Below are positions 3,798-28,445 of a stretch of 31,721 bases of DNA, one piece after another. Source of the DNA: a virus. The notes under the pieces are model-generated. The model was not told where the DNA came from and made no database searches. It saw nothing but the letters and a program-made list of their open reading frames with translations. The position numbers and the translations under genes are program-made. Location: the IMG/VR virus record IMGVR_UViG_3300015165_000001, positions 1 through 31,721 of that record. One strand, given 5' to 3'. Position 1 is the first letter of the stretch. Each line of letters begins with the position of its first letter.

Positions 3798-4049
3798 ATG
3801 GTCGCGACGAGCGAAGAGAGCAAGCCCGAGGAGAACAAGGAGTCGACCGACGCCAAGGAGGCGAAGGCGGCAGCCGACCCGGTCAAGGACGACCCGGCGT
3901 TCATGCCCAACATCGTGCCGCAGACCGGCGAGGGCGGGAAGGCGAGCTCGAAGAAGGAAGTGGACTCGGGCCTCGAGCCGAACCCCCACGATCCAGTCAA
4001 CTCGCCGCAGGCGAGCAACCCGACGGTCATGACCGGGGAGAACGAGTAG
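3798..4049 (+). CDS. Small acidic hydrophilic protein
   Basis: This is an 83-residue protein dominated by Glu, Lys, Asp, Pro and Ser, with no hydrophobic core, so it is probably disordered. An AGGAGG ribosome site just upstream and a start directly behind the previous stop make it a convincing gene. It is followed without a gap by the next start at 4050, so it belongs to the same transcript. The central stretch DPAFMPNIVPQTGEGGK resembles the two tiny hydrophilic proteins of the minus strand at 26877-27225 in composition only. The function is unknown. It could be an accessory virion protein or an assembly factor. Confidence 0.7.
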   Translation: MVATSEESKPEENKESTDAKEAKAAADPVKDDPAFMPNIVPQTGEGGKASSKKEVDSGLEPNPHDPVNSPQASNPTVMTGENE

Positions 4050-4403
4050 ATGGCAACCAAGAAAGCAGCCAAGGTCGACAAGGTCGACAAGACCGTCGAG
4101 CGAGATGAGACACGGGTGAAGCCATCGGCCTCATCGCGCAAGTCGCGCAAGGGCGATGTCCGACTGGACCCGCAAGGCGCGCTTCTTCCGGGCAACACCG
4201 TCACCTTCGTCGCTGACGAGGGTGAGGGCGTGGTCCAGGCCAAGATCATCACCGCCAAGGATTCCTGGCTCGTCGCCGCAAGCAATACCGCAGGCGGCGC
4301 TCGTGTCTCGAAGATCATCGAGACCGGTCACGGCGAGATCACCGTGGAGTTCTACGAGGACGGCAAGCTCTACGCGTCGGGGACTTGGACCGTCGGTGCG
4401 TAG
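4050..4403 (+). CDS. Basic-tailed small beta-rich protein
   Basis: This 117-residue protein has two parts. A very basic, lysine-rich N-terminal 40 residues (ATKKAAKVDKVDK and on) is likely flexible. A C-terminal part of about 75 residues has alternating beta-type segments such as NTVTFVADEG, EITVEFYEDGKLY and ASGTWTV, which suggests a small beta-sandwich. The start immediately follows the TAG of the preceding gene. The stop overlaps the GTG start of the cytidylyltransferase, so translation is probably coupled. The family is not recognised. Position between virion-type proteins and sugar enzymes would fit a small surface or decoration protein, but that is inference. Confidence 0.65.
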   Translation: MATKKAAKVDKVDKTVERDETRVKPSASSRKSRKGDVRLDPQGALLPGNTVTFVADEGEGVVQAKIITAKDSWLVAASNTAGGARVSKIIETGHGEITVEFYEDGKLYASGTWTVGA

Positions 4404-4854
4404 AACGTACGGGGCCGTCGTCTACACCGGTGGCACGTTCGACCTCTTCCATGCCGGTCACGTCGAGCTGTTGCGAACCTGTCGTTCGCTGGCTGGGCGT
4501 GACGGCAGGGTTGTGGTGGCGCTCAACACCGACCAGTTCGTGATGGATTACAAGCACATCATCCCGAGCCATGACTACGACGCCCGTAAGATCATCCTTG
4601 AGGCCTGCCAGTACGTTGACCTGGTGGTCTGCAACACCGGCAACGAGGACAGTAAGGTGGCGATCGAGGTCGTCCAGCCGGACATCATCGCCATCGGAGC
4701 CGACTGGTCGCCGCAGAACGGCAAGGACTACATGGCTCAGATGAAGTTCACCGAGCAGTGGCTCAACGAACGACACATCGAGCTGCGCTTCGTGCCCCTC
4801 CTGGCAGGGCACTCGGCGACCATCACCCGCCGGAAGCTGGCGTCCGTGCCGTGA
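4396..4854 (+). CDS. Cytidylyltransferase-like nucleotidyltransferase (TagD/GCT superfamily)
   Basis: This 152-residue enzyme belongs to the HxGH nucleotidylyltransferase superfamily. The N-terminus shows the hallmark YTGGTFDLFHAGHVELL, with the nucleotide-binding histidines H19 and H22. A later ALNTDQFV strand and IIAIGADWS match the Rossmann-like core. The C-terminal GHSATITRR stands where glycerol-3-phosphate cytidylyltransferases carry the STT signature. Relatives make CDP-glycerol or activate sugar phosphates with CTP or ATP; the substrate here is not readable from sequence. The GTG start at 4396 is chosen because upstream codons have no homology. It overlaps the previous stop by 8 bases. 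A longer open frame extends back to 4156 but is out-of-frame shadow. The next two genes are glycosyltransferases, so the product likely supplies an activated sugar or polyol for virion or host-surface modification. Confidence 0.85.
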   Translation: MRRTYGAVVYTGGTFDLFHAGHVELLRTCRSLAGRDGRVVVALNTDQFVMDYKHIIPSHDYDARKIILEACQYVDLVVCNTGNEDSKVAIEVVQPDIIAIGADWSPQNGKDYMAQMKFTEQWLNERHIELRFVPLLAGHSATITRRKLASVP

Positions 4855-5453
4855 AGAAGCGCGGTGTCGTCATCGCCTCCCATCCGGGTGGCATGACGCC
4901 ACTGATCACGCTCCTGAACTCGCTATCGACCTGCCGCCGCCAGGTCCACGTCGTCATCAACAACTGCCCCGAGGACCAGGTTCTCGCCATCCACGACCAG
5001 CTCATGCAGGTCGATCTCATCCGGCCGCTGTGGGTCTACTTCAACGAGGAGCCGGGCTACGAGCTTGGCGCGTTCAAGACCATCCTCGAGCACACCGACC
5101 TCGACGAGTTCCTCTTCCTCCAGGACACGTTCGAGGTCAAGGACGTTTCGTTCATCGATGTCGTCTTCAGGCGTAAGGAGTCGGTCGCACTGGGACCGAC
5201 GTTCTTCCACTACGCCGGTAAGTGGAAGCGTTCGGTCCTCGAGCAGATGGAGATCCCGGTCGTCCGCAGCAAGCAAGAGTCCATCCACTGGGAGCACACC
5301 TTCAGCCGCCAATACTGGGAGCGCGAGACCGTGTGGGTGTTCGACCCGCACTTCCACGACGGTGAGCACAAGGGCTTCGTCGACGCCTTCGGCCGCGAGA
5401 ACATGCTCCTGGAGAACGAGTTCTACATCAAGCGCAAGGGCACCTGGAAGTGA
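4851..5453 (+). CDS. Glycosyltransferase-like protein (GT-A fold, divergent)
   Basis: This 200-residue protein starts at a GTG that overlaps the preceding TGA by four bases (GTGA). The N-terminal VVIASHPGGMTPLITLLNSL and VHVVINNCP look like the nucleotide-sugar half of a GT-A enzyme. GYELGAFKTILEH and FLFLQDTFEV occupy the place of the metal-binding loop, where a canonical DxD is replaced by QDT. Many phage and capsular GT2-like proteins share the G-Y-E-x-G-A pattern. The reaction is presumably sugar transfer to a protein or polysaccharide acceptor, but the missing DxD leaves activity uncertain. It is coupled to a second GT2 gene downstream by another GTGA overlap, and the two could work in sequence. 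Confidence 0.7.
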   Translation: MKKRGVVIASHPGGMTPLITLLNSLSTCRRQVHVVINNCPEDQVLAIHDQLMQVDLIRPLWVYFNEEPGYELGAFKTILEHTDLDEFLFLQDTFEVKDVSFIDVVFRRKESVALGPTFFHYAGKWKRSVLEQMEIPVVRSKQESIHWEHTFSRQYWERETVWVFDPHFHDGEHKGFVDAFGRENMLLENEFYIKRKGTWK

Positions 5454-6148
5454 TCCCGGTCCTGGGTGTCCCGACGCTCTACCGGGTCGATCTGCTCAAG
5501 CGGATGCTCGACTCGATCGACCACGAGGTGGGGATCAAGCTCATCATCGATAACGGCGGCCTGGTGCCCGAGTGCGATGCCACGGTCATCCGCTTGCCGC
5601 ACAACCTCGGGGTCGGGGCGAGCTGGAACCTAATCTTCAAGATGACGCCGCGAGCACCGTGGTGGCTCATCTGCAACGACGACATCGTCCTCGGACCCGG
5701 CGACCTGGAGCGACTGGCGGGGGTCATGGAAGACCCATCGCCCAAGATCGCGATGCTGCTCGGCTTCACGTCGTTCGGCATCAACCAGGCGGCCCTCGAC
5801 GCCGTGGGGTTCTTCGATGAGAACTTCCACCCGGCGTACTGCGAGGACAACGATATGACCTGGCGAGCTGGGCTTGCCAACGTTCCTCTCATCAACGTGG
5901 AGTCTCACGTTGAACACGAAGGGTCGGCGACCATCCGTGGCCACGATCTTTACATGCGGCAGAACGGCAACACGTTCCCGCAGAACTTGGCCTACTACCG
6001 CTCCAAGTGGGGCGGCAACCCAGGCCAGGAAACGTATCGAACACCATTCGATCAGGGTGGTGATCCAGCCGGAGTCCCGATCAAGTTGACCCGGCTCAAC
6101 GAATACGCCTGGGCTCGATTGAAGCCCGAGCAGGAGGATCAGGAATGA
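5450..6148 (+). CDS. GT2-family glycosyltransferase
   Basis: This 232-residue protein has clear family 2 glycosyltransferase marks. RLPHNLGVGASWN (residues 48-60) is the usual nucleotide-sugar region. CNDDIVLGPGDLERL (75-89) carries the D77-D78 metal site. FDENFHPAYCEDNDMTWR (122-139) holds the E132-D133 acceptor/catalytic motif. VEHEGSAT (154-161) matches the late conserved H-x-G-S/T of rhamnosyltransferase-like members. The family average is larger, so this is a compact catalytic domain without extra modules or membrane segments. The start is the GTG overlapping the previous TGA. The stop overlaps the next ATG (ATGA), where an AGGAGG site lies within the end of this gene. Its product probably adds a sugar to a virion protein or glycan made by the neighbouring enzymes. 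Confidence 0.85.
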   Translation: MIPVLGVPTLYRVDLLKRMLDSIDHEVGIKLIIDNGGLVPECDATVIRLPHNLGVGASWNLIFKMTPRAPWWLICNDDIVLGPGDLERLAGVMEDPSPKIAMLLGFTSFGINQAALDAVGFFDENFHPAYCEDNDMTWRAGLANVPLINVESHVEHEGSATIRGHDLYMRQNGNTFPQNLAYYRSKWGGNPGQETYRTPFDQGGDPAGVPIKLTRLNEYAWARLKPEQEDQE

Positions 6149-6474
6149 CCGTCGCGATCACCATCGTCCCCGCATCCGGAAGCGTCAAGGCCAAGGTCAG
6201 CGCGTGCCGCGTGCATGTGACCGGAGCCAGCGCCACGGACTCGACAACCTACGACACGGCCGAGCTTCCTCGTGAGGATGCGATCCCGTTCCGGTTCGTC
6301 GCCACCAAGTCCGGGGTCGACAACCTCGTCAGCCACGAGTTCAACGTCAGCGCCAGCGGTGAGCACACCTGGGATGACCTCATCTTCCCGATCGACGGCA
6401 CGTGGTCGCTGAAGCTCGTCGACCAGCGCAATAACTCCAACGCCGCGACCCTCTCGGTCGTCGTCAACGCGTAG
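6145..6474 (+). CDS. Small beta-sandwich-like protein of unknown function
   Basis: This is a 109-residue protein with a start supported by AGGAGG at 6131-6136 and by a 4-base ATGA overlap with the GT2 gene. Alternating strands (VAITIVPAS, KVSACRVHVTG, IPFRFVATKS, SHEFNVSASGEHTW, TWSLKLVD, ATLSVVVNA) suggest an immunoglobulin-like sandwich of the kind found as decoration or tail-surface domains in phages. There is no signal peptide and there are no catalytic motifs. Sitting directly behind the glycosyltransferases, it might be an acceptor or a decoration protein; that is inference only. Confidence 0.65.
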   Translation: MTVAITIVPASGSVKAKVSACRVHVTGASATDSTTYDTAELPREDAIPFRFVATKSGVDNLVSHEFNVSASGEHTWDDLIFPIDGTWSLKLVDQRNNSNAATLSVVVNA

Positions 6475-6494
6475 GCCATCTTGATCGACGTCGC

Positions 6495-6647
6495 ATGGAT
6501 GAGGAGATTCGCAAGCAGCAGTCTGAAGAACTCGTGAAGCAGGCAGCACGGCTGGCGGCTGAGGCTGGCGAGGCCAGCAACCGGCTCCGCAAGTTGTTGG
6601 ACGAACTGGCGTCGGTCAAAGCGACCATCGAGAAGCAGCGGCGATGA
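6495..6647 (+). CDS. 50-residue coiled-coil protein
   Basis: An ATG at 6495 opens a frame of 50 codons ending with TGA at 6645-6647. The product is a single charged amphipathic helix (begins MDEEIRKQQSEELVKQAARL, ends ASVKATIEKQRR) with regular hydrophobic spacing, likely a coiled coil. The ribosome site is weak. The codon use and G/C third positions match the neighbours, and it fills an otherwise empty 208-base gap. The function is unknown. It may partner with the helical proteins that follow. Confidence 0.5.
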   Translation: MDEEIRKQQSEELVKQAARLAAEAGEASNRLRKLLDELASVKATIEKQRR

Positions 6648-6682
6648 TCTTTCGCCATATCGGGAAGTAATCAGGGGAACCC

Positions 6683-7006
6683 ATGCCGCAAGAATGGGTT
6701 GCGTTTCTTCGGGAGTTCGGGCTCCCGCTCTCAATGCTTGTCGTTCTTGCCGTCGGTTTCCAGAAGCGAGTCTTCGTCTTGGGGAAGGACGCTGACGCCC
6801 GAGTCGATGACGTCAAAGCATCCGCATCCGTAGCGCTCGGTCTCGCCGAGCAGGAGAAGGCATACCGAGAAGATCGCCGCCTCGAGGAACGGGCCAATCG
6901 GTTGCTAACCGAAGAGGCTCTCCGTAACCAGGTGAACGTTATGCGCGACATGACTGAGCTACTCAAGGACATCGAACGGAACTTTCGAGGACGTTCTGAT
7001 GCCTGA
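6683..7006 (+). CDS. Single-pass membrane coiled-coil protein
   Basis: This 107-residue protein has one hydrophobic segment near the N-terminus (LPLSMLVVLAVGF, residues 14-26) followed by a long charged helix to the C-terminus. The first residues MPQEWVAFLREFG are short and amphipathic. A GGGGAA site lies 5 bases before the ATG. The shape resembles small phage membrane proteins such as holin-associated or spanin-like components, but no family signature is visible. It overlaps the next start by 8 bases, and three neighbours share the helical character. Confidence 0.6.
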   Translation: MPQEWVAFLREFGLPLSMLVVLAVGFQKRVFVLGKDADARVDDVKASASVALGLAEQEKAYREDRRLEERANRLLTEEALRNQVNVMRDMTELLKDIERNFRGRSDA

Positions 7007-7184
7007 ACGCGACAAGCAGCGAGACCCCCAGCTCGAGCTTGAGCGAGCCCAGACCAATGAGCTGCTCGTGGCTGCCGAATCGGCGGCGACAGAGGGGGCG
7101 GCAGTGCTTGAACGTCTTCGACTCGCAACCGAGCAATACCGAGAACGGCTCGGAATCCCACCTGCTACAAGGCGGCCTAGATGA
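6999..7184 (+). CDS. Small helical hydrophilic protein
   Basis: This 61-residue, charged helical protein (ERDKQRDPQLELERAQTNEL at the start) has no membrane segment. Its ATG overlaps the end of the preceding gene and its stop overlaps the next ATG (ATGA). That makes a three-gene coupled run. The pattern LLVAAESAATEGAAVLERL suggests a coiled coil. The function is unknown. Its coupling to two membrane proteins points to a small multi-protein membrane-associated complex. Confidence 0.55.
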   Translation: MPERDKQRDPQLELERAQTNELLVAAESAATEGAAVLERLRLATEQYRERLGIPPATRRPR

Positions 7185-7798
7185 CCATCGAGTTTCTCGT
7201 TCTCGTCGTCTTCACGGCCCTTCTGTCGCTCGGTACGATCAGAACCCTGGCCAGGCTCGTGGAATACGCTAATGCGCGACGACCGATTCCGGTCCTGCTG
7301 TGGCGCGATGTCGTCGGCCAGGCCGGTCTCGCGCTCCCATTCCTGCTGATCGCGATCTCCCGAGCGCTGGGTCTGGGGCCGGTCCTGGCCAAGATGGACT
7401 GGTGGATCCTCCTCACCTCCGTGCCCGCGATCATCAGCGTGGCCACCTACGCCTACTACGAATACTTCGTCATCGACAAGTACGCGAAGGACGTCGCGAG
7501 CGCTGGCCGTGACCGTCGAGACCCGCTCCTGCGGCGGCGGTATGACATGTTGCTCTCGGCCATCAAGGACCAGGGGAAACAGATCTCCCAGCAAGCAGGG
7601 CAGATCTCCGCGCAGGCCGGTCAGATTCTCGAACAGGGCGAGCAGCGTAAGGTTGACATCGAGGTCCAGCTTGTCCGTACCGAACAGATCGCCGACCTGG
7701 CTGCGAACGTTGCTGCCGTTGGTGCGGATACCCACGACAAGGTCGAGGACATCCACGACGCCGTCGTCGAGGAGCCCAAGCGAAACGGCCGGGCTTGA
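7181..7798 (+). CDS. Multi-pass membrane protein with long coiled-coil tail
   Basis: This 205-residue protein has an N-terminal membrane region with three likely helices (residues about 3-20, 45-63 and 73-93). A charged, helical C-terminal half follows. The segment QISQQAGQISAQAGQILEQG (about residues 136-155) is a clear 7-residue periodic repeat. The tail ends in a basic stretch, KRNGRA. The start is the ATGA overlap with the gene before. Size and shape would suit a holin-like or membrane-anchored scaffold, but the position upstream of the head genes rather than by the lysis genes argues for another role. The next gene is 171 bases away, so the transcript may end or be re-initiated here. Confidence 0.6.
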   Translation: MTIEFLVLVVFTALLSLGTIRTLARLVEYANARRPIPVLLWRDVVGQAGLALPFLLIAISRALGLGPVLAKMDWWILLTSVPAIISVATYAYYEYFVIDKYAKDVASAGRDRRDPLLRRRYDMLLSAIKDQGKQISQQAGQISAQAGQILEQGEQRKVDIEVQLVRTEQIADLAANVAAVGADTHDKVEDIHDAVVEEPKRNGRA

Positions 7799-7822
7799 CA
7801 AGACCTTGCGTAGGCCTATCAG
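7795..7822 (+). promoter_or_regulatory. Candidate sigma-70-type promoter before the capsid operon
   Basis: A perfect TTGACA lies at 7795-7800, followed after 16 bases by TATCAG at 7817-7822. The spacing is one base short of the usual 17 and the -10 box is poor, so this is a suggestion only. It sits in the largest intergenic gap before the head genes, where a late promoter would be useful. Confidence 0.3.
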
Positions 7823-7969
7823 GTCGCGTATTGTGCCGTTGGTGGACCGCGCCGCTCTATAAGATGAGCCGAACAGGCTCGATGGGTCGAATGGCGACCT
7901 GATTTATCAGGCCACAGCCTCCCCAGAGCGCGTGCCGTAACCCCTTTACCTCGTCACCGAGGGAGGCGT
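7799..7969 (+). other. Structured non-coding leader before the head genes
   Basis: This 171-base gap holds several short inverted repeats: GAGCC/GGCTC at 7866-7880, GGTCG/CGACC at 7885-7899, and the palindrome CCTGAT-tt-ATCAGG at 7898-7911. A 10-base inverted pair, ATCAGGTCGC at 7818-7827 and its complement at 7894-7903, spans 66 bases between its arms. These could be operators or an RNA leader structure. No tRNA fold or open frame was found. The GGGAGG at about 7961-7966 is the ribosome site of the next gene. Confidence 0.4.
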
Positions 7970-9277
7970 ATGCCCAAGATCCTCCTCCTGGCTGACGCTG
8001 GGAGCACGACGGGGTTCGCGCGTGTCAGTCACGCCGTCGGAGACCGTCTGGTTCGCGACTACGGGCACGAGGTTCACTGCCTGGCGGTGAACTACGACGG
8101 GGATGCAGGCAAGTGGGATACGGCCATGAAGCTGTATCTGCCGACCAAGTACCGACCCAACGATGTGTACGGCCAGAGCCGCTTCGTCGAGATGCTCGGC
8201 GAGGTCATGCCGGACGTCGTGGTCATGCTCAACGATCCGTACGTCATCCTGAAGTTCCTGCTGCGCAACAAGTTCGACCCAGAGGCCCTGCTGGCGCGGA
8301 CACGACCGATCATCGCGTACATGCCGGTCGATGGCACGAACCAGCCACCGGCCTGGAGCCGGATCGGCCAGATCATCGCCGGGCTACCACCGATCAAGGG
8401 TGGGACGGGTCGGACGTTCTACCCGGTGGCCATGAGTGGCTACGGCCAGAAGTTCCTCACCGGTAGCGAACTCATCTATCACGGCATCGACCACGACCGC
8501 TATCGGCCGGTGAGCCCAGAGGACCCGCTTCTGCTGTCGACCGGCGAGTCGATCACCTCCAAGGCCGAAGCCAAGATGGCGTTCGGCATCCCGCCCGATG
8601 GGCTGCTGGCCCTGCGAGTCGACCGCAACAGCTCCAGGAAGAACTTCGGCGATACGTGGCGGGCGCTGGTGCCGGTCATGCAGCGACACCAGAACCTGCA
8701 CGCCTGGTTCCACTGCCGAGCTGAAGGCGATCAGCTCGAGATGCCACAGCTCTTCAGCCGTGATCCAGCCACCGCTGAACGATTCCGTGTGCCAGGCAAC
8801 TTCGATACCAAGCATGGCTGGAGCGAGAACGATCTCATCGGTCTCTACAACGCCGCCGACTTCTTCGTCTCCACCAGTTGGGGCGAGGGCTTCGGCCTGA
8901 CCCTCGGTGAGGCCGCCGCATGCGGGATCCCGATCGTCGCCCAGAACGTCGCATCGATCACCGAGGTCGTTGGCCCCGGTGGCATCCTCCTGAAGCCCGA
9001 ACGACTCACCGCTGTCGAGTCTGGCCAGGATCAGTGGCTCCCCGATGTTCGTAAGTTCACCATCGCCATCGAGCGCTTGGTGGCATCGGAAGGGCTACGT
9101 CAGTCGCTCGGTGAGGCTGGTCGCGCGCATGTCGTCTCAACGTTCAGTTGGGATGACGCGGCCCGCCGTTTCCACGAGCTGATTACCAGGGTGGCTCAGG
9201 AGAACCCTGTGACTCCCACCTCGGAAGCGCTTGGAGATGACGACTATGCCCCCGACGATCCTCGAGAACCAGACTGA
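7970..9277 (+). CDS. GT4-type (GT-B fold) glycosyltransferase
   Basis: This 435-residue protein carries a two-domain GT-B layout. The N-terminal ILLLADAGSTTGFARVSHAV (residues 4-23) is the acceptor-side Rossmann start with its glycine-rich loop. RVDRNSSRKN (217-226) is the phosphate-binding arginine-lysine region. STSWGEGFGLTLGEAAACG (301-319) contains the E306-x7-E314 pair that defines the family 4 donor site. VRKFTIAIERLV near the end closes the donor domain. There is no signal or membrane segment, so it acts in the cytoplasm on a nucleotide-sugar donor. GGGAGG precedes the ATG. Its 3' end overlaps the prohead protease start by 32 bases, tying it to head synthesis and suggesting that a head protein is the acceptor, though that is inference. 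Confidence 0.85.
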   Translation: MPKILLLADAGSTTGFARVSHAVGDRLVRDYGHEVHCLAVNYDGDAGKWDTAMKLYLPTKYRPNDVYGQSRFVEMLGEVMPDVVVMLNDPYVILKFLLRNKFDPEALLARTRPIIAYMPVDGTNQPPAWSRIGQIIAGLPPIKGGTGRTFYPVAMSGYGQKFLTGSELIYHGIDHDRYRPVSPEDPLLLSTGESITSKAEAKMAFGIPPDGLLALRVDRNSSRKNFGDTWRALVPVMQRHQNLHAWFHCRAEGDQLEMPQLFSRDPATAERFRVPGNFDTKHGWSENDLIGLYNAADFFVSTSWGEGFGLTLGEAAACGIPIVAQNVASITEVVGPGGILLKPERLTAVESGQDQWLPDVRKFTIAIERLVASEGLRQSLGEAGRAHVVSTFSWDDAARRFHELITRVAQENPVTPTSEALGDDDYAPDDPREPD

Positions 9278-11739: not shown

Positions 11740-12606
11740 GTGTACGTGACGCCGAAGCGGTTCCGAACATTGGGGACCGGTCTCGACTTCACGGGGAAGT
11801 CGGACAACGATCTCCAGGCCATCCTCTTCGCGGCAGGGTTGGCGGTGAATGCCGCCTGCCATGCCCCGGAGGGTTATTCGTTCCTCGGCGGTCACGTGAT
11901 CAACGAGGAGCACCAGTGGCGGGTGGGTAACGCCTACAAGCAGCCGTCGGGACGCATCTGGCCATACATGCGCCCGCTCATCTCGGCGACCAGCTTGCGG
12001 ATCAACGTCACCCGAACCCAGCACGTCGACTTCAGTGATCAGCAGCTCTTTCTCCAGAACGGTCTGGGCTACGTCGAGCCGGTCGCCGCACCGAACACCA
12101 CGGCGCTGTTCACCTCGGTGCCGCCCTGGCTGCTTTCTTCACCGGTGGCGTATCTCACCTACGACTACGGGTTCAATGAGCTTGTCACCGACGAGATTCT
12201 GGCAACCCTGTCCGGCGGCATCCTGGCGGGCAACCACCAGTTCTGGTTCACCGAAGAGGCCGTCACGCTCAAGAAGAACGACGTCGTCGTCCCGACCAAC
12301 CAGTACACCATCGACTACACCGAGGGACTCATTACGCCGACGACACCGCCTGCTGGCGAGGTCTGGAAGGCGAGCTACCACTACCACCTCCCGGCCGGGA
12401 TCGCCGCAGCCACCTCACTCATCGCCACCGACCTCCTGGGTCAGGCGGCCATCGTTGGCTCGGGCCTGCTTGGCCTGTCGGGACTCAAGGTCGAAGAGGT
12501 CGAGATCCGGCTGAGTGCGAAGGTCAACTTCGGGGTCCAGCCGATCAGTGCTGCGGCAGCGATCTACCTCGCGCCGTACGCATCGATGTTCGTCTCGATG
12601 CGATGA
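11740..12606 (+). CDS. Head-tail connector/adaptor-type protein
   Basis: This 288-residue protein stands immediately after the capsid gene, where head-tail adaptors are encoded in siphoviruses. The first 80 residues are helical, with the pattern SDNDLQAILFAAGLAVNAAC typical of the four-helix gp6-like connector. A beta-rich middle part (YDYGFNELVTDE and VTLKKNDVVVPTNQYTIDYTEG) resembles a bound surface domain. It ends in a helical tail, AAAIYLAPYASMFVSMR. The protein is longer than the classical connector of about 100 residues, so the beta domain is an addition. The GTG start at 11740 has GGGAG upstream. The stop overlaps the next ATG (ATGA). Confidence 0.7.
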   Translation: MYVTPKRFRTLGTGLDFTGKSDNDLQAILFAAGLAVNAACHAPEGYSFLGGHVINEEHQWRVGNAYKQPSGRIWPYMRPLISATSLRINVTRTQHVDFSDQQLFLQNGLGYVEPVAAPNTTALFTSVPPWLLSSPVAYLTYDYGFNELVTDEILATLSGGILAGNHQFWFTEEAVTLKKNDVVVPTNQYTIDYTEGLITPTTPPAGEVWKASYHYHLPAGIAAATSLIATDLLGQAAIVGSGLLGLSGLKVEEVEIRLSAKVNFGVQPISAAAAIYLAPYASMFVSMR

Positions 12607-12968
12607 GCCCACTCCTTAGCACGGCCCAGCTCGCCGGTCTGCGCAAGGTCGCGCACCGGGGTCTTACCGATACCGCCGTCGTCCTGCGAGCTACGGAAGT
12701 GGAGAACGACTTCGGGACCGAGACAGTCTGGGCGACGGTCTATCTCGATGTGCCGTGCTGGGTCCGCCAGATGAAGGCCAGCAACATCATTGATGTGGTG
12801 ATGCACTCAGCGGTCATCGGCGACTTCCGGATCCTGTTCCCGGTCGGAACGGACATCGATGACGACGACAACGTCGTGGTCGCTGGGCAGACCTACAGCG
12901 TCACCAACAACAACACGGAGGACACCATCCAGGTCTTCTGTGAGGTGACAGCGAGGAAGGTCGAATGA
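12603..12968 (+). CDS. Head-closure (stopper) protein
   Basis: This 121-residue protein is beta-rich, with the stretch VVLRATEVENDFGTETVWATV followed by VPCWVRQM, DFRILFPVGTDIDDDDNVVVAG and QTYSVTN. This resembles stopper proteins that seal the head after packaging (SPP1 gp16/HK97 gp7-like), where a small beta-barrel binds below the connector. It overlaps the connector at ATGA and the next gene at ATGA. The identification rests mainly on order and fold resemblance. Confidence 0.65.
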   Translation: MSPLLSTAQLAGLRKVAHRGLTDTAVVLRATEVENDFGTETVWATVYLDVPCWVRQMKASNIIDVVMHSAVIGDFRILFPVGTDIDDDDNVVVAGQTYSVTNNNTEDTIQVFCEVTARKVE

Positions 12969-13600
12969 GGCCAGGCAAGGTCACGCTCCACATCAAGAAC
13001 ATCGACCTCTCGAACCTCGACGACGACGAGGCGCTCATCAACATCCTGGCCGTCAAGGTCAGCCACGCGTTCAGCGAGAAGCTGGCACCTCAAGTCGTCG
13101 ACGTGGCGAAGGCCAGGGCTCCGAGTCGCCAGCCCGCTGAACGTGCGTTCAACCCGAGGAAGTCGAGCTTCCAGAAGGTTGCCCTCCTCGATCGGCTACC
13201 TCCCTCACGCTCGAACACCGCCGAGCGCATCAAGCGCTTCAGCTCACTCCAGGCTGGTGAGCGGGAGGTCGATCTGGCCAGGGATGCCGAGTTCTTCCGA
13301 GGGACCGCTGGCAAGAACAAGGGCGCAGTACCCGACGTGCTGCGGTTCCGAGGTGGAGCCGTGGTCGGTGCGTTCGAGACCAGGGGCGGGACCCTGAAGG
13401 CCAGCATCAAGTTCGATGGTGTTCGTCGTGAGGGCAACAGGGTCATCGCGACGGTCAGAGCCCACGCGCCGTACGCCTGGTACGTCCACGAGGGTTTCAA
13501 CCATGTGGGCGGCAAGGCGATCGCTCCACGCAAGTTCCTAGTGTCGGCTCTCGCCAACATCAGAACGAGGATGTCCGACCCGTCCACCTATGAGGGTTAG
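12965..13600 (+). CDS. HK97 gp10-like neck/tail-completion protein
   Basis: This 211-residue protein ends with VRAHAPYAWYVHEGFNHVGGKAIAPRKFLVSAL, here cited in parts: VRAHAPYAWYVHEGF (residues about 161-175) and KAIAPRKFLVSAL (182-194). That YxxYVHEG...P-x-KFL pattern is the signature of gp10-like minor tail or neck proteins. The N-terminal 80 residues are helical and charged (LAPQVVDVAKARAPS), as in the family. Its size is somewhat larger than HK97 gp10, with a basic insertion in the middle. It joins the stopper and terminator in the neck between head and tail. It overlaps the gene before by ATGA and is followed two bases after its stop by the next start. Confidence 0.8.
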   Translation: MRPGKVTLHIKNIDLSNLDDDEALINILAVKVSHAFSEKLAPQVVDVAKARAPSRQPAERAFNPRKSSFQKVALLDRLPPSRSNTAERIKRFSSLQAGEREVDLARDAEFFRGTAGKNKGAVPDVLRFRGGAVVGAFETRGGTLKASIKFDGVRREGNRVIATVRAHAPYAWYVHEGFNHVGGKAIAPRKFLVSALANIRTRMSDPSTYEG

Positions 13601-21692: not shown

Positions 21693-24073
21693 GCACGGTC
21701 GTCATCAGGGTCGGCGGCACGAACATCACAGCAGACGTCATCTTCGGTGACGCGGCGTTCGTGTCACAGGTGAACGGGAATCCGGGGGCGTGCTCCTTCA
21801 GGGTCAAGGACAACGCACAGACCTACGCCTTCACCACCGGGGCCGAGGTGACGCTCGACATCGATAGCGTCCGGACCTGGGGCGGGTACATCACCCAGGT
21901 CCGTAAGACCTATGTGCTGCCGGTCCTCGACGCCGACCCGCCCACTGCCGTCCATCGGGTGTGGTCCGTCACCGGTCTCGACTACAACGTGCTGTTCAAC
22001 AAGCGGATCGTCTGGAAGGAATCGGCCCCGACTGGGAAGCTGGACTTCGAGTACAGCGTCAACACCTATGACGACACGATCATCAATGACATCTTCGACA
22101 ACTACCTGACCATCAGCGGCGATGGTCTGACGCGCACGGGCGTGACCCGGATCGACAAGGCCATCCTCGACCTCCCAGGGCTCGGCCACAAGGGCCTGAT
22201 CGCCTCGGCTGGGTTCACCTGGAAAGAGATGATGGACTCGGTCGCACGCGCGACGGGCGGCATGTACTACATCAGTCCCGACAAGGACCTGGCCTACGTC
22301 GACGTCGAGACGGCCGATGGGCCGTACCAACTCCAGGATCTCCGTGGGGTCACGTGGCAGGACTACACCGCTCCAGCGTGGGTGGCGCTGTCACCGGTGC
22401 TCTCCCTGGCGTTCGTACTGGGCGACTCGAACTACGTCTGGCAGTCCGGTGGCGACGGGACGACCGGTGCCTCGAGACCAGACTTTACGGCAGCGATGAT
22501 GGCGGGCACGGTCGATGACGGGACCGTCACCTGGTTCCTGGTCAACCAGTGGGTGACTGGCAGCGGTCAGTACCTGAACTCGGCGCTTCAGCCGACCATA
22601 CCCAACGGTCACGCGTACGTGACGACATACACGCGGGCCACCGACTTCGGGCTCACTGGCACGGTCGAGCCCACCTGGCCGACCGATGGATCGACCGTTA
22701 CCGATGTGGTCATCGGCTACCAGAACTTCTCGTTCCTCTACAACGGCTCGGACATGATCAACGACATGTTCGTGTGGGGCGCTGGCAACGCCACTCCGAA
22801 CTACGTCTTCAGCCGGAGCCAGGACTCCACATCGATCACGAATCACGGGCGCTGGCAGTCCAGCTTGCAGACCACTGCGCTGTACCGCCAGACCTCAGCG
22901 GACGCCGTGGCGACGTCCTACGTCTACGGCACGCCCCAGAGTCACCGTGGCGGCAAGGACGACCAGATCACGTTCACCTGCCGGGTGTTCCGGCCGGTCT
23001 ACCACGCCGGGTCGAAGATCAGCATCTACAACTCCATCTTCAACTACTACGACGTGCTGCCGGTCCGCCAGATGACGGTCACGTTCGTGAGCCCGACCGA
23101 ACCCATCTTCGACCTCACCCTGTCTCACGACATCGACCTGCCGTATGCCATCTCGGAGTTCCTCGGACCAGGGAGGCTCGGAGGAGGAACCACCGGGACC
23201 AACGTGACTCCTCACGCCACCGGGATCACTGACACATTCACGCGGGTCGTGAGCAGTCCCTCGTGGGGCACGAGTGATGCGGGTCTCCCTTGGTCCGTGA
23301 GTGGGATCTCCGTGACCTCGGCCGACGTGAACGGAGCCCGTGGCTGTCTTCAGGTGGCCCAATCTGACGGCTCCTACGTTGCGTCGGTCCTGACCTTCGC
23401 GACCAAGCCGTTTCTTGGGGCAGACATCGCAGCGCAGACGGACTGGCCGTTCGGTGGCGCGACGCTTGCGAACTTCTGGATCGAGTTCCATTTCGTGGAC
23501 GGTACCGCCGGTAATGTCCGGTTCTCGTTCTACGACGACCTCGTGACGCCAACTAAGGTCGCGTCTCTACAGGACTTCGGGCCAGCCCATACCGACTCAG
23601 TCACCTTCTCGACCTTCTCGTCGCTGGCCGACAACGTCTACCGCTTCGTGATCGATGCGGGCAACCTCGTGGTGTATGCGTGGACACGCCCCGGTGGTCC
23701 TGGTGCAGCGATCCTGTCGATCCCCATCGACTCGACGACCTATGACTCGATCACGATCGGGACGGATGGTGCCGCGCAGGGCGGCAAGGTCTGTATCGAC
23801 TACGTCGACCTGAAGGGAATCCGGGCTGACACCATCGGCGCAGGCACTACTGGGTTCGGCTGCGAATCCTTCATCGCGACGGCTTCTCAGACGACGTTCA
23901 CGGTCTCAAGCGCGATCCATCCCCTTACCTCGGAGGTGTCTGTGGCTGGGTTGCGGATGGCGCGTGGAGTCGATTACACGGAGACCCCAGAAACGGGGAC
24001 CATCGTGTTTGGCACAGGCGTGACCGCAGGGGTACTCGTCTACATCTGCTATACGGCCGACGGTGCCCTCTGA
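21689..24073 (+). CDS. Minor tail protein with lectin-like and repeat modules (long paralogue)
   Basis: This 794-residue protein is the longer of two tandem paralogues. The shared core begins with a beta-type start (VIRVGGTNITADVIFGDAAF) and includes LDYNVLFNK and the motif TSITNHGRWQ (about residues 380-390). Between these it carries an extra segment (about 225-347) with two copies of a GTTGASRPDF...DDGTVTW-type module, seen also as GLTGTVEPTWP. Residues about 512-707 look like a concanavalin/laminin-G-type sugar-binding domain (DTFTRVVSSPSWGTSDAG). Residues about 720-794 are a small beta module ending in VYICYTADG. It probably forms the tail tip or fibre base that contacts the host surface. 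The GTG start overlaps the tape measure stop by four bases. Confidence 0.8.
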   Translation: MSTVVIRVGGTNITADVIFGDAAFVSQVNGNPGACSFRVKDNAQTYAFTTGAEVTLDIDSVRTWGGYITQVRKTYVLPVLDADPPTAVHRVWSVTGLDYNVLFNKRIVWKESAPTGKLDFEYSVNTYDDTIINDIFDNYLTISGDGLTRTGVTRIDKAILDLPGLGHKGLIASAGFTWKEMMDSVARATGGMYYISPDKDLAYVDVETADGPYQLQDLRGVTWQDYTAPAWVALSPVLSLAFVLGDSNYVWQSGGDGTTGASRPDFTAAMMAGTVDDGTVTWFLVNQWVTGSGQYLNSALQPTIPNGHAYVTTYTRATDFGLTGTVEPTWPTDGSTVTDVVIGYQNFSFLYNGSDMINDMFVWGAGNATPNYVFSRSQDSTSITNHGRWQSSLQTTALYRQTSADAVATSYVYGTPQSHRGGKDDQITFTCRVFRPVYHAGSKISIYNSIFNYYDVLPVRQMTVTFVSPTEPIFDLTLSHDIDLPYAISEFLGPGRLGGGTTGTNVTPHATGITDTFTRVVSSPSWGTSDAGLPWSVSGISVTSADVNGARGCLQVAQSDGSYVASVLTFATKPFLGADIAAQTDWPFGGATLANFWIEFHFVDGTAGNVRFSFYDDLVTPTKVASLQDFGPAHTDSVTFSTFSSLADNVYRFVIDAGNLVVYAWTRPGGPGAAILSIPIDSTTYDSITIGTDGAAQGGKVCIDYVDLKGIRADTIGAGTTGFGCESFIATASQTTFTVSSAIHPLTSEVSVAGLRMARGVDYTETPETGTIVFGTGVTAGVLVYICYTADGAL
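22824..22858 (+). repeat. 35-bp direct repeat, copy 1
   Basis: These 35 bases are identical to 24866-24900, in frame, encoding the shared TSITNHGRWQ core of the two minor tail proteins. The flanking DNA is strongly diverged. Confidence 0.85.
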
Positions 24074-25602
24074 TGCCAGGCTCGACAATCGTCATCACCT
24101 ACGACGGCACGGACATCAGTGGATCGTGCATCTTCGCTGAGTGCTCGTTCGAGGCCCAGATGGCGGCGGTGCCCGGCACGTTCACCGTCACGGTGCGAGA
24201 CATGGATCGCACGCTCAACTTTGTCACTGGCAAGGAACTGACGCTCGACGTGGATGGCAAGCGCCTGTATGGCGGCTACGTCACCCAGGTCACGCAGCGT
24301 TACGCCTTCCCGGCCGACAACACGGCTGACCTATCCCGCGTCCATAGTCGCGAGTGGGTCCTGTCTGGCGTCGACTACAACGTTCTCTTCGACAAGCTGA
24401 TCCTGCACAACTCGGCCGACTACACGCACGACATCCCAGTGGTCTCAGGTGATCCGTACGACGGCACGATCATCCGGACCTGGTTCGATAACTACTTCGA
24501 CCTGCCAGCGGGCTTCACCTTCAATAACGCCACGTATGTGCTCAACAACCACCAGTGGGGCGCGTCCCAGAACCACCATTACATCTGGCCGACCCAGGGT
24601 GCCACCATGCGCCAGGTGCTCGAGGACCTGGCCATATACGGCTCAGTCTTCTGGATGGCAGCCGACAAGACCCTGCGCTTCATCCCGGTCCAGGACACGG
24701 CCGCTTCGTGGGGCTTCAGCGACCAGCCCAACAACGACCCGATCGGCGTCGGGACACCGACTCGTGGCTTCCGTGAGGGGGAGTACAGCATCGCCAACGA
24801 TGCCCTGGTCTGGGGCGGCTCCGAGTGGGCGGCCGGAGGCGCGGTGGTGTTCGACCGACGCACGAACTCCACATCGATCACGAATCACGGGCGCTGGCAG
24901 ATCGCCGAGAACCGTGTCGGTGACGCGAAGTTCAAGATCCTGGCCCAAGTCACCGCGCGAGCCAAGGTCATCGTCGATGGCAACGAGTCAGGAACGACCA
25001 TCCAAGGTAGTCAGGGCCTCGTCAACCCAGAGGACCAGTTCCGCTGCACGTGGTTCAACACGGGCGTGCCGGTCTCTGGCGGTAGTCCAGTTCACCTTGT
25101 TCCAGGGCTGGTCGTACCGATCGAGCTGTGGGTGTTCAGTCAGGACGCTGGCGTCCATCCGTTCCTGGTCAACCTGCCCTTGCGCCAGGTCCGCATCACG
25201 TTCCCGACCCTCGAGAACGAGACCGGCAAGGCCTACGCCCAGTTCGAGGGCTTCTTCGGGGTCCAGATGGCAGATCCGTTCTGGCTCTGGAGCTATCTGC
25301 GGTCGTCCAAGTCACGGCTCCCTCGGGGCCAGCTCATCAGCAGCGCGAACAACTCGACTGTCAACCCGCCCTATGCGGCGCAGTACCAGGACGTTCCAAG
25401 TCCGGCGGCTGACGGTTCGACCACCGTGTTCACCATCCCATTCGGCTACATCGCTGGAACCAGTCAGGTGTTCGTCGCAGGCCTTCTCTTGATGCCTGGC
25501 GACTACACCGAGAGCAATCCAGCAGCCGGGCAATACACCCTAGCGGTGGCCCCGACCACGGGCCAGACGATATGGGTGAAGACGACCCTGACGGGCGGCT
25601 AA
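24073..25602 (+). CDS. Minor tail protein (short paralogue)
   Basis: This 509-residue protein is a paralogue of the gene before it. Similar blocks include the start (ITYDGTDISGSCIFAECSFE), LSGVDYNVLFDKL and TSITNHGRWQ (about residues 266-275). It lacks the two repeat modules and the lectin-like domain of its partner. The C-terminal 70 residues (ADGSTTVFTIPFGYI to TIWVKTTLTGG) are the small beta module common at the ends of tail fibres, matched in the longer protein. The ATG at 24073 sits on the stop of the partner gene. Together the two likely form adjacent parts of the baseplate, one of them made adhesive by added modules. Confidence 0.8.
   Translation: MPGSTIVITYDGTDISGSCIFAECSFEAQMAAVPGTFTVTVRDMDRTLNFVTGKELTLDVDGKRLYGGYVTQVTQRYAFPADNTADLSRVHSREWVLSGVDYNVLFDKLILHNSADYTHDIPVVSGDPYDGTIIRTWFDNYFDLPAGFTFNNATYVLNNHQWGASQNHHYIWPTQGATMRQVLEDLAIYGSVFWMAADKTLRFIPVQDTAASWGFSDQPNNDPIGVGTPTRGFREGEYSIANDALVWGGSEWAAGGAVVFDRRTNSTSITNHGRWQIAENRVGDAKFKILAQVTARAKVIVDGNESGTTIQGSQGLVNPEDQFRCTWFNTGVPVSGGSPVHLVPGLVVPIELWVFSQDAGVHPFLVNLPLRQVRITFPTLENETGKAYAQFEGFFGVQMADPFWLWSYLRSSKSRLPRGQLISSANNSTVNPPYAAQYQDVPSPAADGSTTVFTIPFGYIAGTSQVFVAGLLLMPGDYTESNPAAGQYTLAVAPTTGQTIWVKTTLTGG
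24866..24900 (+). repeat. 35-bp direct repeat, copy 2
   Basis: This copy is identical to 22824-22858 and lies in the shorter paralogue. The two are 2042 bases apart. The identity includes synonymous positions, which differ almost everywhere else between the paralogues. Confidence 0.85.
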
Positions 25603-25657: not shown

Positions 25658-26380
25658 ATGGCAGACACCACCGCCAAGGCGGACGACAGCACCGAGCACT
25701 TCGGCACCGGAGCGATCCAGTCACCACCCGATGACCGGGACTTCACCTTCGAGCAGCTCGTAACAGCGAGTGGGCAGGAGCTCACGGCGAGCCTCCCCAG
25801 CACGTTCCTGATGACAGGACTCGCGCCCATCCTCAACCAGGGCAATACGCCCATGTGTGTGGCCTACTGCACCTCGGGGATGAAGGGCTACCAGGACCGC
25901 AAGGACCAGGGCAAGTTCTTCAACTTCGATGAGCCCAGGTTCTTCTCGCTCATCGGCGGGGGACCCAACGGGTCGACGGTGCGCGTCGGTCTCGATCGAC
26001 TCCTCAAGGCTGGCTATCCCGTCGTCGGTGTCGGTGATCCGGGCCACCACCGGATCGCTGGCTATTACGCCATCCCCAAGGCGCAGAACACCCTCATGCA
26101 GGCGGTCCACGACTTCGGCCCGCTTCTCGTCAGCACGCCCTGGTACCACTCGTGGTTCCACCCGGTCGGCACAGGTGGCAACGTCAAGCTGCCGCCGCCC
26201 GACTACAGCGTCGGTGGCCACGCCATCCAGGCGACCGGCTACAACCCGACCGGCCTGGTCCTGCGCAACTCGTGGGGCACCTCGTGGGGCTACCACGGCA
26301 GCGTGACCATGCCGTGGGCGTACGTCCTCCATTCCGTCTGGGAGGTCTGGAAGGCCCTCGACGTCATCGACAAGAAGTAG
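25658..26380 (+). CDS. Papain-like cysteine peptidase (C1 family)
   Basis: This 240-residue enzyme shows the papain catalytic set in order. Q61 and C67 lie in ILNQGNTPMCVAYCTSGM, H188 in VGGHAIQATGYN and N204 in LVLRNSWGTSWGYHG. The last motif is almost exactly the classical NSWGxxWGxxG. The length suits a mature catalytic domain, and there is no signal peptide or inhibitory propeptide. The ATG at 25658 is chosen over the ATG at 25613 because AGGA lies 7 bases before it, and because the longer N-terminus shows nothing of interest. It follows the minor tail genes and precedes a holin candidate. It could be a peptidoglycan endopeptidase for lysis, a tail-associated protease or an enzyme acting on host protein. 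The first is my preferred reading, but it is only inferred from place. Confidence 0.88.
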   Translation: MADTTAKADDSTEHFGTGAIQSPPDDRDFTFEQLVTASGQELTASLPSTFLMTGLAPILNQGNTPMCVAYCTSGMKGYQDRKDQGKFFNFDEPRFFSLIGGGPNGSTVRVGLDRLLKAGYPVVGVGDPGHHRIAGYYAIPKAQNTLMQAVHDFGPLLVSTPWYHSWFHPVGTGGNVKLPPPDYSVGGHAIQATGYNPTGLVLRNSWGTSWGYHGSVTMPWAYVLHSVWEVWKALDVIDKK

Positions 26381-26392
26381 AAGGAGCGCACC

Positions 26393-26626
26393 ATGATCTT
26401 CGGACGCCCACCGGCCCTGTTCGCAGCGGCGATCTCGGCCATCCTCAACGCCATCGTCCTGATCCATATCGTCACCCTCGACGCCCAGCAGATCGCTGGC
26501 CTCAACGTCGCGGCGGCAGCGATCATCGGCCTGATCGCAGGCACCTCACTGACCGATCACGCGGCCCTCGCGGCGGCGCAGGAGAAGCGGGTCGCCGCTC
26601 GCCAAGACCTAGACAAGTACAAGTAG
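26393..26626 (+). CDS. Two-helix membrane protein, holin candidate
   Basis: This 77-residue protein has two membrane helices (about residues 8-27 and 36-54), linked by a short polar turn, and a charged C-terminus (AAAQEKRVAARQDLDKYK). This is the class II holin shape. An AAGGAG site precedes the ATG. It lies 12 bases behind the papain-like peptidase and directly before a zinc-ribbon gene. Holins set the moment of lysis by opening the inner membrane. The call rests on shape, size and neighbourhood, not on any signature. Confidence 0.65.
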   Translation: MIFGRPPALFAAAISAILNAIVLIHIVTLDAQQIAGLNVAAAAIIGLIAGTSLTDHAALAAAQEKRVAARQDLDKYK

Positions 26627-26797
26627 ATGCCCAAGGCGCGCACGCTCGGACTCCCCATGAAGTGCCCGTCGTGCCCGCCTCGTCGGTACTACGGGATCCT
26701 CAAGGGGGAACAGGTGCCGACACACCTGGTCAAGTTCAACCTGTCGGATGTCTGTGAGAACTGCAAGACGCCGCTGATCCCAACGATCAAGCGCTAG
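26627..26797 (+). CDS. Zinc-ribbon small protein
   Basis: This 56-residue protein starts on the base after the holin-candidate stop. It has two C-x2-C pairs, C13/C16 (MKCPSCPPRRYY) and C43/C46 (DVCENCKTP), 26 residues apart, a typical four-cysteine zinc ribbon. The function is unknown. In phages such proteins are often small accessory or DNA/RNA-binding factors. It is the last plus-strand gene before the bidirectional terminator. Confidence 0.65.
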   Translation: MPKARTLGLPMKCPSCPPRRYYGILKGEQVPTHLVKFNLSDVCENCKTPLIPTIKR

Positions 26798-26821: not shown

Positions 26822-26862
26822 GAAGAAGCCCCCGTCCGGTCAACCCGGACGGGGGCTTCTTC
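26822..26862. terminator. Strong bidirectional terminator between convergent arms
   Basis: Bases 26822-26839 pair perfectly over 18 bp with 26845-26862 around the 5-base loop TCAAC. The outer pairs are A/T-rich and the inner core is G/C-rich, so the stem ends in CTTCTTC on one strand and the same on the other. It lies between the last plus gene (26797) and the last minus gene (26877), ending transcription from both sides. Confidence 0.9.
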
Positions 26863-27282: not shown

Positions 27283-27948
27283 TCACCAACGCACGGTGAC
27301 GGGTAGCGTGCCGACGCCTCCCAGGCGGTGCATCGGAGCCCAGTACAGGTCGATCAGCTTGGAGTTGCTACCGCACCAGTCGACCAGCCTGACGATGACG
27401 ACCCGACCGCCGCTCGAGACCCGGACGACCTGGCCTCGCCAGTGGATGCCCATCGCCACCCGGAGCTTTCCGCAGGCTGCTGCGACCATCGAACCCGGTG
27501 GGTATGCGTAGTGACAGATCGATACTCCGGCCTTGCAGTACCAACTTGCTACGCCTGCTACGGAATGTGCTGTGGGAGTAGTAGCTACCTTCACTTTGGA
27601 CTCCGTCACCGGTGAAGGATTCCGGTTTATAACCTTCGGCGCTAAAGACTTGAGCTCAACGTGCATGGCTTCTGGAAGAACGCTGACGCTGAATCCCTCA
27701 TAGATGACGGGAACGGGCACTTGAGATGCTTGATAAGTCTTGGAACTTTCCTGCACGCTGGGCGGAACTGTGCTGGAACAGGCCGCAAGCAGGACTGAGA
27801 TGAGTAGACTTACGGCGGGTCGCGCGGCCCGACCGACTCCTTCGGCAGCGCGTTCAGGGTGAGGATGGGATCCCTGGGCGGGGCGTCTCGGCGCAGTACG
27901 GTGAGCGAAGGCCCACCGCCCGAAGGCTCCCATCAGGCCGCCATTCAT
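27283..27948 (-). CDS. RlpA-like double-psi beta-barrel lipoprotein
   Basis: This 221-residue protein has a hydrophobic stretch AVSLLISVLLAAC (residues 45-57) with a lipobox ending at C57. The N-terminal 44 residues are unusually long for a signal peptide. The C-terminal part (130-221) reads GVASWYCKAGVSICHYAYP, then AAACGKLRVAMG, RGQVVRVSS, VIVRLVDWCG and LIDLYWAPMHRLG. This is the pattern of RlpA-type domains, with D190 and D200 in the usual catalytic-area places. RlpA proteins are outer-envelope lytic transglycosylases or wall-binding barrels, so this could be a wall-acting phage lipoprotein. The ATG at 27948 overlaps the previous TGA (ATGA); a TTG lies six bases earlier. Its 5' half is visibly less GC-rich than the neighbours. 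Confidence 0.75.
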   Translation of the reverse strand: MNGGLMGAFGRWAFAHRTAPRRPAQGSHPHPERAAEGVGRAARPAVSLLISVLLAACSSTVPPSVQESSKTYQASQVPVPVIYEGFSVSVLPEAMHVELKSLAPKVINRNPSPVTESKVKVATTPTAHSVAGVASWYCKAGVSICHYAYPPGSMVAAACGKLRVAMGIHWRGQVVRVSSGGRVVIVRLVDWCGSNSKLIDLYWAPMHRLGGVGTLPVTVRW

Positions 27949-28445
27949 ATCCAAGCGCTGACCTTGTCGACTCCAGCCACGGCCAGCAGGGTGATGGCTG
28001 CCACGTTGAACCGCTCTGGGTGGCCGCCCGCAACGGCTCGGGCTGTCAGCTTGGTGGCGATCTCCTCGACGCTTAGGCCGTGCATGACCGCCAGGTACAG
28101 GACATCGAACTCGAGCGGTGCGGCCCGGCGGAGCTTGCGGAACGCTCGGGTGACACGCGTGCGTTCATCCGAGTGCTTGGCGCGGTATTCCTCGCCCTCG
28201 AGGTAGATCGGTAGGTCTTCCCGGCACTTCGCGCAGTGTGGGTCCTTGCAGTTGAGCTTGCCGACGTAGTTGACGAACTCTGGTGCGAACGGCGGGGCTG
28301 AGCCCAGGCCGAAGTGCGCACCGTGGTTGGTGGCGTGGATCCGGGTGGGAATCTCCCCTCGGTAGTCCTTGCCCCATTCACCCAGGAATCGCTGGGCCTT
28401 ACGGACCTCTTCGTCCGTGACGATCACCTCGTTGGGTCGTGCCAT
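27945..28445 (-). CDS. Possible HTH/zinc-binding regulatory protein
   Basis: This 166-residue basic protein has a GGAGGAAGG site before its ATG at 28445. C66-x4-C71-x2-C74 in LNCKDPHCAKCRED could bind a metal. The C-terminal half is helical and HGLSVEEIATKLTARA (122-137) resembles a helix-turn-helix of sigma-70 region 4 or LuxR type, followed by a helix with PERFNVAAITLLAVAG. DNA binding is therefore possible. No family is recognised. Its stop overlaps the start of the RlpA-like gene by four bases, so the two are co-translated. Confidence 0.5.
   Translation of the reverse strand: MARPNEVIVTDEEVRKAQRFLGEWGKDYRGEIPTRIHATNHGAHFGLGSAPPFAPEFVNYVGKLNCKDPHCAKCREDLPIYLEGEEYRAKHSDERTRVTRAFRKLRRAAPLEFDVLYLAVMHGLSVEEIATKLTARAVAGGHPERFNVAAITLLAVAGVDKVSAWI

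Follow-up and report, generated by a model that had tools for sequence, protein, structure and literature searches.

Cysteine-peptidase lysins are already known from the CHAP, NlpC/P60, C39 and C71 branches, and C1A genes are known in phages. PeiW and PeiP (C71), the pseudomurein endoisopeptidases of methanogen viruses, are lysis enzymes of this kind; by description they are set apart from the papain analysed here in both peptidase family and host. The CHAP and NlpC/P60 lysins belong to the papain-like superfamily, employ Cys-His catalysis and serve in lysis (PMC10318531), but neither PF05257 nor PF00877 was matched in the window (the whole stretch of 31,721 bases analysed here) or in the searched contigs of its clade. 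Papain-superfamily lysins are also known from the C39 branch, through the C39-like N5 cysteine protease domain of mycobacteriophage and Gordonia phage LysA (PMC3314691, PMC4982276). LysA N5 resembles the window papain in being a papain-superfamily cysteine protease in a lysis cassette near a holin. It differs in being C39-like and, in BetterKatz, in being followed by a separate GH19 lysin, and no relation between the two was detected by hmmsearch or hhalign against BetterKatz gp29 (probability 0.2%).

Within the C1A family, xylellain of Xylella fastidiosa (3OIS) and short bacterial xylellain-type enzymes have the same fold and catalytic set as the window papain. Identity to xylellain is nevertheless about 22%, and the holin-linked setting and the NQG[ND]TPxC-type motif belong to the clade of the window protein; no lysis role is known for xylellain. 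A related arrangement is that of the Thermoanaerobacterium phage THSA-485A, in which the C1A papain Tsac_2838 lies 16 bases behind a GH25 lysozyme in a group of holin-like genes, and in which a motif of about 30 residues at the C-terminus is common to lysozyme and papain (z 11.8, 0 of 5000 shuffles). Like the window gene, Tsac_2838 is thus a C1A gene in a lysis cassette; however, it is 22% identical, falls outside the clade and is found together with a classical lysin, not by itself.

That Caudoviricetes have acquired C1A genes of the xylellain type has already been published (PMC10380794), and a single motif-limited scan gave 244 viral relatives. C1A genes are therefore not very rare in phages, and the rarity asserted in an earlier, sequence-only reading of this DNA was overstated. 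Our literature search turned up no C1A enzyme described as a phage lysin, and, within the literature searched, a C1A peptidase that fills the endolysin slot with no other recognisable lysin beside it is undescribed.

The papain gene, its fold and its surroundings

The window covers one IMG/VR virus record in full; the record is classed as linear and is probably a genome fragment. Its papain gene (Table 1) is preceded by a GAGG-type ribosome-binding site and lies, as first read, after the tail genes: upstream are an ORF of tape-measure length (2087 aa) and two more long ORFs in tail position. The 509-aa ORF, which sits after the 2087-aa ORF, matches baseplate and tail families weakly in profile searches. 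Only 12 bases separate the papain stop (26380) from the ATG (26393) of a protein with two hydrophobic segments, in agreement with the two-helix holin-like neighbour proposed at the outset. The interval originally singled out, 25658-26797, contains these two genes but extends over a third ORF, zinc-ribbon-like, for which Pfam and PHROG searches gave no confident family. The run is closed by a hairpin (MFE -40.1 kcal/mol, z -7.9) lying ahead of the minus-strand genes. It is a probable terminator, and was absent from the list produced by a scan of the window for T-rich intrinsic terminator patterns. Elsewhere in the window, several glycosyltransferase-type genes and one cytidylyltransferase-type gene are found inside the structural region, where they possibly serve glycosylation of the virion or host surface.

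Table 1. Coordinates of the features discussed, in the window and in the sequences compared with it.
Feature	Sequence	Position	Strand	Remark
Glycosyltransferase-type and cytidylyltransferase-type genes	window	~4156-9277	+	inside structural region
Tail-type protein	window	24073..25602	+	509 aa; immediately upstream of papain
C1A (papain, xylellain-type) cysteine peptidase	window	25658..26380	+	240 aa; catalytic Q61, C67, H188, N204
Holin-like protein	window	26393..26626	+	77 aa, two hydrophobic segments
Zinc-ribbon-like ORF	window	26627..26797	+	56 aa, two CxxC pairs; last ORF of run
Probable terminator hairpin	window	26822..26862	.	18-pair stem, between converging gene runs
RlpA/DPBB-like secreted protein, probable lipoprotein	window	27283..27954	-	profile with L187 homologue
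RlpA/DPBB-like protein	G001	2944-3642	+	
RlpA/DPBB-like protein	L187	758-1234	+	
RlpA/DPBB-like protein	L190	3-446	+	
C39-like-looking protein	L019 (G003)	6301-6999	+	232 aa
GH25 lysozyme	L004 (THSA-485A)	5068-5970	+	
C1A papain Tsac_2838	L004 (THSA-485A)	5989-6822	+	
Probable endolysin	L295 (G133)	12100-13383	-	427 aa
C1A papain	L013 (Lak-A1)	3998-4627		after portal-type gene
C1A papain	L011	5917-6939		after portal-type gene
Papain and TM operon	L281	9777-11262	-	
Papain and TM operon	L285	8959-10447	+	
Papain and TM operon	L284	3425-4926	-	
Papain and TM operon	L282	8215-9720	+	papain appears frameshifted

The window papain matched PF00112 (Peptidase_C1) above the curated cut-off of 20.7 (24.5 bits, E=3.2e-5) and phrog_16701, annotated 'peptidase' (E=2.6e-14). 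PF00112 was its only Pfam family, and neither a peptidoglycan hydrolase domain from any known family nor a wall-binding domain was recognised in it. The Q-C-H-N set named in the sequence-only reading was correctly positioned, and all four residues are invariant in 33 of 33 aligned sequences; the catalytic cysteine, whose loss in close relatives would have counted against that reading, is retained throughout. An AlphaFold2 model built with 32 relatives as alignment (pLDDT 92.6, pTM 0.89) bore out the papain fold, with xylellain as the best solved structure (3OIS; E 1.6e-15, TMq 0.74) ahead of procathepsins, falcipains and papain. Among the matches in a viral fold library are entries that carry, by name only, the labels 'Peptidoglycan binding-like' and 'N acetylmuramidase'. 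By its catalytic set and its modelled fold, the product of the window gene is an intact C1A papain-type peptidase.

The protein had been described as free of a propeptide or signal peptide. Neither was seen in classical form, yet freedom from a propeptide is doubtful, as the protein has an N-terminal segment like that of xylellain: it is modelled at high confidence from about residue 20 onward, and a family profile made from the same alignment aligns with residues 28-289 of xylellain, the N-terminal segment included (E 2.5e-81), which makes the segment part of the family. The C-terminal domain of G001-type relatives was modelled below pLDDT 50.

Association with small membrane proteins in related phages

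A maximum-likelihood tree placed the window protein in a monophyletic clade of 14 members (support 99/99), made up of the window, eight other viral contigs (G001=L002, G002=L018, L186, G003=L019, L187, L202, G004=L020 and L190) and five copies from bacterial genomes. The active-site motif of the clade is mostly NQG[ND]TPxC, with QGSSPMC in most Chloroflexota copies; the majority of the remaining viral papains have QGxLGSC.

At most two genes away from the papain, and mostly right beside it, there is a small membrane protein in 10 of 10 clade loci (the nine viral loci and L105, a Chloroflexi MAG contig that carries an integrase, two small TM proteins, the papain and a holin-like protein). The same was true of 19 of 62 other viral papains, against a background of 32% (Fisher p 4e-5 for the two counts, with loci that share ancestry treated as independent). 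The observation made in the sequence-only reading is real and beyond chance. The broader proposition that every viral papain is a lysis gene was rejected, since the other viral papains, mostly QGxLGSC, are not enriched beside small TM genes.

A frequent gene order is an XhlA-like coiled-coil protein with a C-terminal TM segment, the papain, a protein with one to three TM segments and a further small TM protein. The 77-aa protein of the window is homologous to the papain-side membrane proteins of G002 and L186 (z 15.6, 0 of 200 shuffles) and gives a weak holin match (phrog_9752, E 0.012). Further homologies join the neighbour in L202 to that in G001, and the neighbour in L190 to that in G003. 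The L190 neighbour is an HMM-recognised holin (phrog_1299, 3.9e-7; Phage_holin_5_2, 3.3e-5, below the Pfam cut-off). The membrane neighbours therefore comprise several unrelated families, with the papain as the constant element.

The cassette itself changes position. In the window, G001 and L202 it comes after tail genes, in L186 it lies among head genes, and in G004, L187 and L190 it is flanked by integrase and terminase. That papain and membrane protein remain paired while the cassette moves disfavours a tail or maturation role. A tail-bound or virion-associated protease, aiding passage through the envelope at entry, would fit the location of the window papain directly after tail genes; given the positions in the other phages, and a constant partner that is a small membrane protein and no tail gene, we regard this as improbable. 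A protease for head or tail maturation is a very improbable reading: distant C1A papains of a Lak phage and of L011 do lie directly after a portal-type gene, but the window encodes its own S78 prohead protease (Pfam), and its papain gene stands apart from the head module. The position of the Lak-A1 and L011 papains suggests a different role there.

In two clade members, L187 and G003, the papain has an N-terminal hydrophobic and a C-terminal TM segment, and that of L187 also a long P/T-rich linker. Judging from these segments, the two enzymes probably act outside the cytoplasm. A signal peptide is absent from most clade members. G003 additionally encodes, two genes past its papain, a protein of C39-like look, with no Pfam match and no similarity to the papain family.

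Candidate wall hydrolases and the endolysin slot

Among 40 proteins of the window, 46 of G001 and 48 of G004, Pfam brought up no member of the amidase, lysozyme, M23, CHAP, NlpC or glucosaminidase families, in scans that rest on our own gene calls and from which short or unusual ORFs may be missing. In G001 and in G004 the two ends of the contig seem to lie in one gene, so that each looks near-complete. G002 and G003 were pooled for the Pfam scan, of which the best 25 of 45 families were listed; targeted searches of these two for Amidase_2, CHAP and M23 found none, nor did searches for Amidase_3 and NlpC/P60 in nine clade contigs. The sequence-only reading, which saw no classical lysin in the window, thus holds, and the canonical endolysin that might have been encoded elsewhere was found neither in the window nor in the two near-complete relatives. 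As the window is a fragment, a lysin gene may lie beyond its ends.

The main doubt about a lysin role comes from an RlpA/DPBB-like secreted protein encoded in four phages of the clade (window, G001, L187 and L190). A profile with the L187 homologue included detects the G001 copy too (E 1.1e-22) and, at a weak level, that of L190. In L187 the protein exceeds the cut-off of PF03330 'Lytic transglycolase'; the window copy has no Pfam match of its own, and begins with a lipobox-like N-terminus. Identification of this protein as a papain inhibitor (NF041659, E 4.7e-4) was rejected at 20 bits against a cut-off of 150, and a generic RlpA/DPBB protein is preferred. Such a protein could be the glycan-cutting wall hydrolase, with the papain as helper, an accessory lysis protease acting on wall or surface proteins. 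The THSA-485A papain, which accompanies a GH25 lysozyme and does not replace it, offers a parallel. However, the DPBB gene lies outside the holin cassette, in the window on the opposite strand, and was not found in G002, G003, G004, L186 or L202, some of which are partial contigs or stretches. On balance we consider this division of labour unlikely.

The strongest argument for a lysin role comes from a related prophage. Neither the DNA nor the capsid of the window matched any of 50,697 phage records, but a homologue of its major capsid protein was detected in genome G133 (E 2.9e-91), which belongs to the class of the Chloroflexota genomes that carry the papain. The prohead protease and capsid of the G133 prophage are 35% and 43% identical to those of the window, and its tape measure, tail genes and post-tail slot are ordered in the same way. 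This slot contains an XhlA-like protein, a 427-aa glucosaminidase-like protein and an LL-H holin (PF09682, 1.1e-13, over the cut-off). The XhlA-like protein has a match (E 0.0018) in the XhlA-like neighbour of the L286 papain. In the 427-aa protein, an N-terminal glucosaminidase-like domain (PF01832, 9.8e-5, below the Pfam cut-off) is joined to an alpha/beta-hydrolase-like part, an unusual LysA-LysB-like fusion and a probable endolysin. The probable wall hydrolase of G133 and the window papain fill equivalent slots in related phages, and it is this equivalence that argues for a lysin role.

C1A enzymes are in general proteases acting on ordinary proteins. Together with the lack of a signal peptide in most clade members, this would suit a protease that works within the host cell, with host or antiviral proteins among its conceivable targets. 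Conversely, the membrane segments of the L187 and G003 papains, with the P/T-rich linker in the former, and the probable lysin in the equivalent G133 slot speak against this, and we give the intracellular role little credence.

Predicted role in lysis and copies in Chloroflexota

Since the papain is linked to a membrane protein at all ten loci despite the changing position of the cassette, and since a related prophage has a probable lysin in the same slot, the endolysin-slot reading of the window papain is well supported. Also in its favour are the lack of a classical lysin family among the scanned proteins of the window, G001 and G004, the membrane segments of two clade papains, the lysis cassette of THSA-485A with its distant C1A papain, the names matched in the viral fold library, and the tight operons of papain and small TM genes in Chloroflexota. 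Among the roles first entertained (lysis, tail-bound, maturation), lysis is now clearly favoured and the other two are disfavoured. We put at roughly two in three the probability that the window papain is the lysis endopeptidase of the phage, a xylellain-type C1A enzyme in endolysin position whose activity is predicted from sequence.

Under such a model the papain would be made in the cytoplasm late in infection, perhaps kept inactive before release by the N-terminal segment that resembles xylellain's. The holin-like protein would open the membrane at a fixed moment and the papain would reach the envelope, there to cut peptide bonds, in peptidoglycan peptides or wall proteins, until the cell bursts. 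In relatives with N- and C-terminal membrane segments, these segments would put the papain on the outer side of the membrane, where it need not rely fully on a holin.

The host is likely a poorly known member of the Chloroflexota, as indicated by the capsid homologue in G133 and by papain matches in the same class: a search of 177 genomes of the class of L105 gave matches at E<=1e-10 in 12 genomes, strong in six. D-Ala-D-Ala ligase was present in six of the seven class genomes searched, five of these being among the six with strong papain matches, so that peptidoglycan is to be expected in the host. The idea that a protease serves as lysin because the host has an S-layer only and no peptidoglycan is accordingly unsupported.

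Should the lysis role prove true, a new enzyme class would join the lysin repertoire, and a likely function could be given to some of the viral C1A genes annotated merely as 'peptidase'. An active-site motif combined with a holin-like neighbour would serve as a genomic marker for viral C1A genes of the lysis type. The substrate may inform on the envelope of uncultured Chloroflexota, and the enzyme offers a possible route to opening those cells. More tentatively, and with the odds against it, a lineage of Chloroflexota phages and prophages may use the xylellain-type C1A papain as sole endolysin, in replacement of glycosidase or amidase lysins, with the operon of membrane protein and papain also retained on host chromosomes, where it would serve by itself in lysis or secretion.

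In chromosome contigs of the Chloroflexota class, papain and small TM genes form tight operons with 4-nt overlaps, mostly without visible phage genes around them (Table 1). These may be prophage remnants or domesticated lysis or secretion modules. The pairwise dN/dS of the Chloroflexota papain copies is about 0.25, and the copy in L282 appears frameshifted.
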